Assembly (NCBI GenBank): GCA_029247365.1
Contig: JAQWLJ010000073.1
Span: 1-64,000, forward strand
Direction: 5' to 3'
Origin: Acidimicrobiales bacterium
GTDB lineage: Bacteria; Actinomycetota; Acidimicrobiia; Acidimicrobiales; Aldehydirespiratoraceae
DNA: 64,000 nt
Positions 60,415 through 64,000 of the stretch are shown in pieces. The first letter of the stretch is position 1; each line of letters begins with the position of its first letter. The position numbers were made by a program, and so were the translations under genes. The notes below the pieces were generated by a model. That model saw nothing but the letters and a program-made list of their open reading frames with translations. It did no database searches and was not told the origin of the DNA.

Positions 60415-61647
60415 CTAGGGGAGATCACCGGTGAGCGTGCAGGTGCCAACCTTGCCACCACCGAGGTCGAACGTCAGCTCGTCGCCGGTTGCGCCGCCGA
60501 AACGGGGGATGCGAACGTCGCTATCGGGGTCGACCGCGATCGTCGTGCGCTGGGTAAGAACCTCGTATTCCTCGCCACCGTCGGCGATGAGCTGGACCCG
60601 CACTGCGTCGGCAAAACCGGAACCGCCCTCCGGTAAGTCGACCTGCCCCGCCGGGATATCGAGTGCCAACAACAGCGCCGTCGGTCCGGCACAACCGATC
60701 GCCGGCTCACGCCCGACAGGGTCGACACACGGCCCGTGGGTGACCGTGTCGAGCGGCCGCAGTCCGGAGGTGACAACGCTCGCCCGCAGACAGACCGTGT
60801 CCGCGAAATTGGTTGGCCCGACGATAACGATGTGACCTGCGCCCGCGTACTGGAACAGCGACGCCACGAGCGCGCCCGGAGGGTACGGGTAGGCAGCGAA
60901 CGGCGCTGTCGTGACCCGATCGTTGACGGGACCCACTCCCGCCAGGACCGCAACGGTGTCGGTGATCCCCGCCGTTAGCGCCGGCTGCGCCGCGGGCGGG
61001 CCGCCCTCGAGAGCGGCCTCGGTCGCTGGTTGGTCAGTTGCTTCGAACTGGAGTGCACCTCGCTCCCGCTGCGCTTCGATACCGAACTCCTGGTAGGCCC
61101 ACCAGCCACTAGCCATCAAGGCGCTGATGATGACGACGCCCACCACGCCGTTGACGAGCCGTTGGCGCCGCCCGAGCACGAGGTTCGTTTCGACCTGTCG
61201 CTCGTCGAGTCGTTCTTGCAGCGTGAGCGGGCCGAAGGCCTCGGACCGGGCGCCGCCCGCGATCAGATCGCGCCAGCGCTCCTGGTTGCCGGGGGGCATC
61301 GCGACCAGATGCGTCTCGAACAGTTCGGCGACGCCCTCGGAAAACAAGAGCAACAGGCCGTTGCTTCGCACATGCTCGACCGGGTCTGCGAGGTCGTGTT
61401 CGAGTTCGCGCTCACCGGCAAGTGCGTCGAAGAAGCCCCGAGCAGCTGCGTCGGCTTCCGCAGCCGTGTACGCCATACCCTTGGCCCCAACCGGTAATTG
61501 GACCGGGCCGTCTCCAGCACGCAGGAACCCCGTGGTCACGAGGAAGCTGTCCGGCTGGATCTCCTCCTCTGTGGGCGGAGGCAATTCCTCGGGCAGATCT
61601 GCAACGCCCTCGTCGGGCACAGTCGGGTCGGGCAGGTCGTCGCTCAC
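60415..61647 (-). CDS. Hypothetical single-pass membrane protein
   Basis: 410 residues. The cytoplasmic part (1-165) starts acidic and Pro-rich, then is helical with a repeated ARGFFDAL/LFSEGVAEL pattern. A transmembrane helix (about 166-184, NGVVGVVIISALMASGWWAY) leads to an external domain (185-410) of Ala/Gly/Pro-rich linker and beta-strands with three or four Cys (VCLRASVV, GPCVDPVG, GCAGPTALL, GTCTLTG) that may form disulfides. No family recognised. Co-directional with and 8 nt from SRAP; TAGTCT lies 9 nt before its GTG. Confidence 0.72.
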   Translation of the reverse strand: MSDDLPDPTVPDEGVADLPEELPPPTEEEIQPDSFLVTTGFLRAGDGPVQLPVGAKGMAYTAAEADAAARGFFDALAGERELEHDLADPVEHVRSNGLLLLFSEGVAELFETHLVAMPPGNQERWRDLIAGGARSEAFGPLTLQERLDERQVETNLVLGRRQRLVNGVVGVVIISALMASGWWAYQEFGIEAQRERGALQFEATDQPATEAALEGGPPAAQPALTAGITDTVAVLAGVGPVNDRVTTAPFAAYPYPPGALVASLFQYAGAGHIVIVGPTNFADTVCLRASVVTSGLRPLDTVTHGPCVDPVGREPAIGCAGPTALLLALDIPAGQVDLPEGGSGFADAVRVQLIADGGEEYEVLTQRTTIAVDPDSDVRIPRFGGATGDELTFDLGGGKVGTCTLTGDLP

Positions 61648-61719: not shown

Positions 61720-63780
61720 GTGACCGACCTCGAACTCGTCTTGGCATCCGGCTCACCCCGCCGCCAAGAGCTTCTGTCTCGGCTCGACGTGTACCCGCTC
61801 GTGGAGCCCGCCGATATCGACGAGACACCAGCGCCGGGTGAGCAAGCCGACGCCTACGTAGAGCGTCTCGCCCGAGAAAAGGCTGCTGCCTCAGCGCGAC
61901 CGGGCCGCGTTGTTCTTGCAGCAGACACGTCGGTCGTCCTCGATGGTGTCATCCTCGGCAAGCCGACCGACCCCGCTGACGCGGCAGCGATGCTCCGGTC
62001 CCTCGCAAACCGCCGACACGACGTGATGACCGGTGTCGCCGTAGCCGTCACGCAAGCCGATGGAACGACGATGGTCCATTCCGCAGTCGAAACGGCTGCT
62101 GTTGAGATCGGCGAGTTAAGCGATGAGCGCATCGGTTGGTACGCGGCGAGCGGCGAACCAGACGACAAGGCCGGTGCATACGGGCTTCAGGGCGCCGCAG
62201 GGATCTTTGCCGACCGAGTCAACGGCAGCGTCACAAACGTCATCGGTCTTCCCCTCCCCCTCGTCGACGAGCTCTTCGCCCGCCACGGGCTCGATCTACT
62301 GGCCTTTCGTAGCGCTCCACCGCTCGACCCGGTGCGTGCAATAGCCGAACTCGCGCTTGACCACGTCACCAACCCCCCGCGAAACGATGACCGGGTCGTC
62401 GACTGGGGATCGCCCGAAGATTTGCTGGCCGACCTGGCAGCAACCATCGGTACCGGATTCGCCACCGAGGAGCCGGCAGCGGCCGCCGGCGACCTCGTTA
62501 ACGCGGCCGAGCGGGTGATCGCCCGGTCGGTCCACACCAACCACCCTCGCTTCGTCAACCAGAATTATGCAGGAGCCGACCCGCTTGCCGTTGTGGGCGA
62601 CTGGTTGGGGGCCGCCCTCAACACCGCCCACACGACGTTCGAGATCGCTCCCGTCTTCATGCTCATGGAGCGGGCGTTGCTCGACAAGATGGCCCGACTC
62701 GTTGGATGGGACCCCGATCCGAAACAGCCAGCCGGACTCCTGTGCGCAGGCGGGTCGATCGCCGGTATGCACGGTCTGCAACTTGCGCGGGCGGCCCGTG
62801 ACCCTGCGTCGATCAATCGTGGTCACGACGGGACACCATTGCGGCTGCTGGTGAGTACGTCTGCTCACTACTCCACCGCCAAGCTCGCTGCGGTCATGGG
62901 CTTCGGCCGCGACGCCGTCGAGGCGATCGCGACCACGCCGGATGGAGCGATGGACATGGACGCTCTCGATGCCGCACTCGGTGACGGTCCCGAGGTGTTG
63001 GCGATCGTCGCCACCGCCGGAACGACGGTGACGGGCGCCTTCGACCCACTCGATGAGATTGCGGCTCGGTGTTCCGAGCACGGCATCTGGATGCACGTCG
63101 ACGGTGCATTCGGATGCGCTGCGTTGTTCTCGGAACGGCAACGGTGGCGCTGCCGGGGCATCGACAGGGCCGACTCTGTTGCGTGGAACCTCCACAAGAT
63201 TGGCGGCGTCACGCAGCAGTGCTCGGTGCTCCTGACCAAGGACGCAAGCCGGCTGGATCCGACGTTCGCGTCGGGTGCTGATTACCTGTTCCAGGCCGAC
63301 AAGCTCTTTGGCGAGTACGACACGGGCGACCAGAACATCCACTGCGGCCGTCGTAACGACGTTCTCAAGACATGGTTGATGTGGAAGGGTCGGGGCGACG
63401 CAGGGATGGCGCACCGAGTCGATCATGCGGTTGCGCTCGCTGATCATGTTCGGGCCCGGGTCACCGAGCGAGATGATCTCGCCCCCATCGTTGCGGGTGA
63501 CTTCGTGACGTCGACGTGCCTGTGGGTGCCCCCGCAGATGCGCCCGCTCAACCTGGGTTCACTCAGCGCCGAGGAGCACGCAGCGCTCCACGCCATTGCG
63601 CCCGCAGCGAAGGCCCGGATGCAGGCAGAGGGATCAGCGCTGATCGGTTATCAGCCAGTCCACGGCATCAACTGCTTCCGATTGATCTTCATGAATCCCG
63701 AAGTGTCGTTCAACGACGCCGACCGCATGCTTGATCTGATCGCCGAGCACAGCGAGGCGGCTTGGCGCCTCGCCCAATGA
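61720..63780 (+). CDS. Maf nucleotide pyrophosphatase fused to PLP-dependent group II decarboxylase
   Basis: 686 residues in one uninterrupted frame. Residues 3-190 are a full Maf domain: LASGSPRRQELL, AADTSVVLDGVILGKP, DDKAGAYGLQG and NGSVTNVIGLPLPLVDELF; Maf enzymes hydrolyse non-canonical or modified NTPs. Residues about 210-680 are a group II PLP decarboxylase (glutamate/cysteine-sulfinate/aspartate type): HPRFVNQNYAG, NTAHTTFEIAPVFMLME, GGSIAGMHGLQLAR, HVDGAFG and the Schiff-base Lys493 in WNLHKIGG. No internal start with a ribosome site was found between the domains. GTG start with GAGACT 7 nt upstream. Confidence 0.85.
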   Translation: MTDLELVLASGSPRRQELLSRLDVYPLVEPADIDETPAPGEQADAYVERLAREKAAASARPGRVVLAADTSVVLDGVILGKPTDPADAAAMLRSLANRRHDVMTGVAVAVTQADGTTMVHSAVETAAVEIGELSDERIGWYAASGEPDDKAGAYGLQGAAGIFADRVNGSVTNVIGLPLPLVDELFARHGLDLLAFRSAPPLDPVRAIAELALDHVTNPPRNDDRVVDWGSPEDLLADLAATIGTGFATEEPAAAAGDLVNAAERVIARSVHTNHPRFVNQNYAGADPLAVVGDWLGAALNTAHTTFEIAPVFMLMERALLDKMARLVGWDPDPKQPAGLLCAGGSIAGMHGLQLARAARDPASINRGHDGTPLRLLVSTSAHYSTAKLAAVMGFGRDAVEAIATTPDGAMDMDALDAALGDGPEVLAIVATAGTTVTGAFDPLDEIAARCSEHGIWMHVDGAFGCAALFSERQRWRCRGIDRADSVAWNLHKIGGVTQQCSVLLTKDASRLDPTFASGADYLFQADKLFGEYDTGDQNIHCGRRNDVLKTWLMWKGRGDAGMAHRVDHAVALADHVRARVTERDDLAPIVAGDFVTSTCLWVPPQMRPLNLGSLSAEEHAALHAIAPAAKARMQAEGSALIGYQPVHGINCFRLIFMNPEVSFNDADRMLDLIAEHSEAAWRLAQ

Positions 63781-63802: not shown

Positions 63803-64000
63803 GTGACTGATCTGGTCGACGCTCCGCTGCCGGCTCCCGAGCCGGAACCGCCCGCACGCCGCGGCGAGTTCAACGCGGTCCGGATTGGCCAGATGGAGGT
63901 GTGGCCACCGGTTGTTCTGGCGCCGATGGCCGGTGTCACGAACGCACCGTTCCGCACGCTGTGCCGCCGCTACGGCGCTGGCTTGTATGTGAACCAGATG
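63803..64000 (+). CDS. tRNA-dihydrouridine synthase (5' part, runs off the window)
   Basis: 66 codons are visible. After a Pro-rich lead (LVDAPLPAPEPEPPARRGEF) the FMN-binding start of the Dus family is clear: PPVVLAPMAGVTNAPFRTLCRRYGAGL. Dus enzymes reduce uridines in tRNA D-loops with NADPH and FMN; this form resembles DusB. The C-terminal catalytic Cys region lies outside. GTG start 7 nt after TAGCCT. Confidence 0.9.
   Translation, partial: MTDLVDAPLPAPEPEPPARRGEFNAVRIGQMEVWPPVVLAPMAGVTNAPFRTLCRRYGAGLYVNQM

Follow-up and report, generated by a model that had tools for sequence, protein, structure and literature searches.

The gene at positions 61720 to 63780 (forward strand) of the window, that is, of the whole stretch of 64,000 nucleotides analysed here, is a real and conserved fusion of two enzymes for which nothing was found showing cooperation of the two activities. 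It is a single open frame of 686 codons, with a GTG start and a TGA stop, coding for a 686-residue protein in which both a complete Maf domain and a complete group II PLP-dependent decarboxylase are recognised by Pfam and by phmmer against the PDB, and it is kept in eight of the nine species of the genus. The reading that we favour, with a probability of about 0.7, is a bifunctional protein that was fused for co-expression and in which each half works on its own: an N-terminal YhdE-type Maf pyrophosphatase would be joined through a short linker of fixed length to a C-terminal PLP-dependent amino-acid decarboxylase of the acidic type. The most likely benefit of such an arrangement is co-expression, as the expression of the decarboxylase would be locked to that of a housekeeping gene, maf.

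The reality of the fusion rests mainly on its conservation. The gene is full-length and free of stops in eight species of the genus, the seven other than that of the window being 63-84% identical to the window protein, and the eight sequences align without gaps from the GTG start, which lies at the identical place in all of them (8/8), across the junction. The gene context also matches among the fusion-bearing assemblies wherever it was read. Since seven further species of the genus carry the fusion intact and gap-free, chance, assembly error and a missed frameshift at 62230-62400, a stretch which the preliminary description had singled out for checking, are excluded. General caution over draft assemblies is all that speaks for an artefact, be it a missed stop, a frameshift or a chimera, and nothing was found for it; with seven independent assemblies sharing the open junction, its probability is negligible. 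A single continuous frame with a Maf domain, a group II decarboxylase and its PLP lysine (K493), as initially described, is thus confirmed. The possibility that an internal start yields a separate decarboxylase was also considered and rejected, no conserved start codon being present: in genomes G001 and G006 no in-frame ATG, GTG or TTG occurs at residues 181-245, which leaves no place at the junction where translation of a free decarboxylase could begin in these two. The frame stays open upstream as far as 61498, but this extension lies antisense over the adjoining gene and does not belong to the fusion gene.

The Maf half (61732..62280, forward strand) was assigned by Pfam (PF02545, residues 5-187, E 2.1e-54) and by phmmer against the PDB, with E. 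coli YhdE (4p0e) matching residues 6-187 (E 1.3e-35). Nine residues characterise the Maf family signature and the YhdE subfamily (PMC3899018), and all of them were located by motif in the window protein: the S-R-E-K-D-K catalytic signature is complete (S12, R15, E35, K54, D69 and K81), and so are the R-T-Q residues of the subfamily (R14, T70 and Q157). By this full signature the half is predicted to be a YhdE-type nucleoside-triphosphate pyrophosphatase. Moreover, a Pfam search of the genome showed the fusion gene to be the sole Maf of the organism.

The decarboxylase half (62386..63777, forward strand) belongs, by Pfam, phmmer and fold match, to the clade of CSAD, GADL1 and GAD. The Pfam model Pyridoxal_deC covers residues 257-601 (E 9.7e-65; 219 bits against a cut-off of 27), and the nearest proteins by sequence are human CSAD, mouse GADL1 and human GAD67 (E 1.8e-95 to 1.8e-88, residues ~207-674), CSAD (2jis) matching residues 222-672 with E 1.8e-95. 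The Schiff-base lysine K493, in the motif NLHK (63196..63198, forward strand), is kept in all the decarboxylase homologues aligned, and Asp461, His383 and Arg654 are still present beside it in the window protein. The CSAD selectivity motif F-aa19-S-aa-Y (PMC4754659) was not found on alignment of the window protein, which has Y283, A303 and T305 (62566..62634, forward strand) at these positions and differs in them from the motifs named in that work. The subclade of the window has Y/A/T at the three positions, the remaining fused species have Y/T/A, and F/T/A is found in most of the stand-alone relatives. The match to the curated diaminobutyrate decarboxylase model was far under its cut-off. The half is predicted to be an acidic-type amino-acid decarboxylase, and both halves, being complete domains with their catalytic residues, would be catalytically active.

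The junction between the two domains (residues 188-222; 62281..62385, forward strand) has an equal length in all eight fusion species. An AlphaFold2 model of the whole protein was obtained with moderate confidence (mean pLDDT 80.4, pTM 0.70) from a shallow alignment of 26 sequences, and its best fold matches are CSAD and GAD. Owing to that alignment, the moderate confidence, the low-confidence stretches at residues 272-285 and 517-541 and the large rmsd to CSAD, the model was not used to judge the packing of the domains.

The preliminary description had proposed a survey of domain architecture among relatives, which was carried out on family, class and phylum samples that overlap and amount to ~800 genomes altogether, and its result holds for these collections. 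The fusion was present in 8 of the 9 species of the genus, genome G008 being the ninth, and in none of the 42 other genomes of the family (51 family genomes); outside the genus it was found neither in the class sample (395 genomes) nor in the phylum sample (396). Plasmid records searched with tblastn gave no match covering at least 80% of the fusion, and a genome-wide degenerate scan for close relatives returned only a Pseudomonas Maf. Matches that seemed to continue beyond the maf stop (G008, G023 and G032) were interpreted as run-on into dus and not as decayed fusions. The decarboxylase itself is patchily present, being absent in G008, G032 and G036, and in several other genera a related decarboxylase lies elsewhere in the genome, away from maf. 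The neighbours of these unlinked genes are varied (FAD amine oxidoreductases, a HisD-DegT fusion, hydantoinase A/B), and no consistent pathway was found among them. An ORF of ~820-840 aa adjoins some of them: the copy at L059:6498-9017 is a histidinol dehydrogenase fused to a DegT-type aminotransferase, and the ORFs at L078:3371-5836 and L075:2962-5424 were likened to it by N-terminal sequence and length only.

The order of the genes around maf suggests how the fusion may have arisen. The gene order PgsA-HIT-SRAP-Hyp410-maf-dus is shared across the family, including the divergent 410-aa gene upstream of maf (60415..61647, reverse strand), which has no Pfam or NCBIfam match, and the tRNA-dihydrouridine synthase-like gene dus, named by sequence inspection, which starts at 63804 and runs on the forward strand beyond the end of the window (63804..64000). 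This gene is the usual downstream neighbour, maf being directly followed by dus in most genera examined and in G008, and a decarboxylase comes between the two nowhere but in the fusion genus and in G022 and G027, two species of a sister genus. In these two species the decarboxylase is a separate gene in phase +2, whose start and the maf stop share 4 nt (GTGA and ATGA) at the site that corresponds to the linker of the fusion. In the decarboxylase tree the fused copies form a clade (UFBoot 96) and group with those of G022 and G027 (UFBoot 80), which gives moderate support to a single insertion.

In the simplest history, a decarboxylase gene would have been inserted right behind maf in the old maf-dus pair; the inserted gene would have come to overlap maf by 4 nt, with translational coupling as a result; and a small indel at the overlap would have merged both into one frame in the genus of the window. 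The overlapping pair of G022 and G027 is the probable precursor state. To account for the patchy presence of the decarboxylase, some lineages must in addition have lost the gene, or it must have passed from one genus to another. Separate genes at this spot in relatives, which the preliminary description had counted as a sign against the fusion, do therefore exist, but in the two sister-genus species only, and there they are likely the ancestral state and not an error. On the other hand, its suggestion of joint regulation agrees with the 4-nt overlap of the precursor genes.

Among the possible roles of the decarboxylase half, the production of beta-alanine from aspartate for pantothenate and CoA, replacing the pyruvoyl enzyme PanD, would be an obvious one. 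Profile searches found panD in none of the 37 family genomes tested, most of which keep panB and panC; the other fusion-bearing species of the genus are among those that retain both genes; and the nearest structural relatives of the half have aspartate, cysteine sulfinate or glutamate as substrate. Nevertheless, the genome of the window and its two closest fusion-bearing relatives (G000, G005 and G007, of which G005 is only 86% complete) lack panC in the same type of search, and in place of an orthologous panB there is only a distant paralogue in G000 and G007 (E 1e-30 to 1e-33, vs about 1e-106 in relatives) and none in G005. Pantothenate synthesis is thus predicted to have been lost in this subclade, which keeps the fusion all the same. 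Most panC-bearing, panD-less members of the family are, moreover, without such a decarboxylase, panB and panC being kept elsewhere in the family with or without it. The replacement of PanD is consequently quite improbable, and the link between NTP hygiene and CoA precursors put forward at the outset is contradicted in this organism by the missing panC and orthologous panB. A role in making a taurine precursor, also raised initially, found no support as far as the canonical route is concerned, cysteine dioxygenase (CDO_I) being absent from all 37 family genomes searched by profile.

As regards selection, pairwise dN/dS is about 0.05-0.2 in both halves for close pairs, and about 0.1-0.2 in both within subclades. 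Both are under purifying selection, which argues that the joint product is maintained. The two halves evolve, however, at unlike relative rates: with all 13 outgroups the decarboxylase half has more changes on the lineage of the window than on the sister lineage (chi-square 1.9-11.3, the outgroups not being independent), and the Maf half has the opposite trend. The additional changes coincide with the loss of pantothenate synthesis. Furthermore, 21 changes specific to the window subclade fall on otherwise conserved decarboxylase columns, including residues 303, 305, 464 and 466 and 17 others, the first two being selectivity positions. A change of substrate in this subclade is therefore possible, and one could suppose that the half, after the pantothenate loss, took on another substrate or is becoming inactive, and is mainly carried along by Maf. 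With dN/dS still at about 0.07-0.09 in the decarboxylase half among G000, G005 and G007, and with the PLP lysine, Asp461, His383 and Arg654 all retained, we consider such a fate improbable.

A functional link between the halves, in which dTTP/UTP or modified pyrimidine status would allosterically adjust how much amine is made, or Maf would be adjusted by the amine or amino acid, is also unlikely, albeit with several observations in its favour: the fixed length of the linker and the purifying selection on both halves over eight species, as well as the adjacent and overlapping genes of two sister-genus species. No shared substrate or pathway was found for the two halves, however, one species of the genus has no such decarboxylase, the gene is unlinked to maf in several other genera, and the relative rates of the halves diverge. 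A fusion as such can reflect functional linkage, and its confinement to a single genus does not decide the matter either way. A more specific version, in which the Maf half would control the amine output of its partner by binding or hydrolysing dTTP/UTP or a modified pyrimidine triphosphate, is a long shot; if true, it would for the first time tie the cleaning of the nucleotide pool to the synthesis of amines. Independent halves fused for co-expression thus remain the preferred reading, because the link to CoA fails and no CDO_I is available for taurine. Until a cross-effect between the two activities appears, the fusion is mechanistically ordinary. It is of interest as a clear natural example of a gene entering an operon and then fusing with its neighbour, the probable precursor being preserved in a sister genus. 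It also calls for caution: although the genes are fused, no evidence points to a pathway common to both enzymes, and the genome contradicts the one that would be guessed first, CoA.

The pairing of Maf with a decarboxylase is apparently undescribed and, among the genomes scanned, restricted to one genus; the preliminary description knew of no such protein, and a literature search likewise found no published description. With respect to the known members of each family, the Maf half resembles E. coli YhdE and B. subtilis BSU28050 in all nine signature and subfamily residues and in its complete domain, but differs from them in being covalently joined to a decarboxylase. The other half shares the PLP lysine and a large part of the active-site sequence with human CSAD (2jis), mouse GADL1 (6enz) and human GAD67 (2okj), its best sequence and fold matches, but is bacterial and has Y/A/T or Y/T/A at the selectivity positions, F/S/Y being found in CSAD. 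It also shares a superfamily with PanP, the PLP-dependent aspartate 1-decarboxylase, but was not filed as such because its score against TIGR03799 (122.8 bits, E 1.3e-35) is far beneath the cut-off of 606.1 bits. Finally, a parallel in architecture is that of ASMTL and the other eukaryotic Maf-methyltransferase fusions (PMC3899018), in which an N-terminal YhdE-type Maf is likewise fused to a second enzyme; the partner is a methyltransferase there and a Pyridoxal_deC decarboxylase here, which points to a separate origin.
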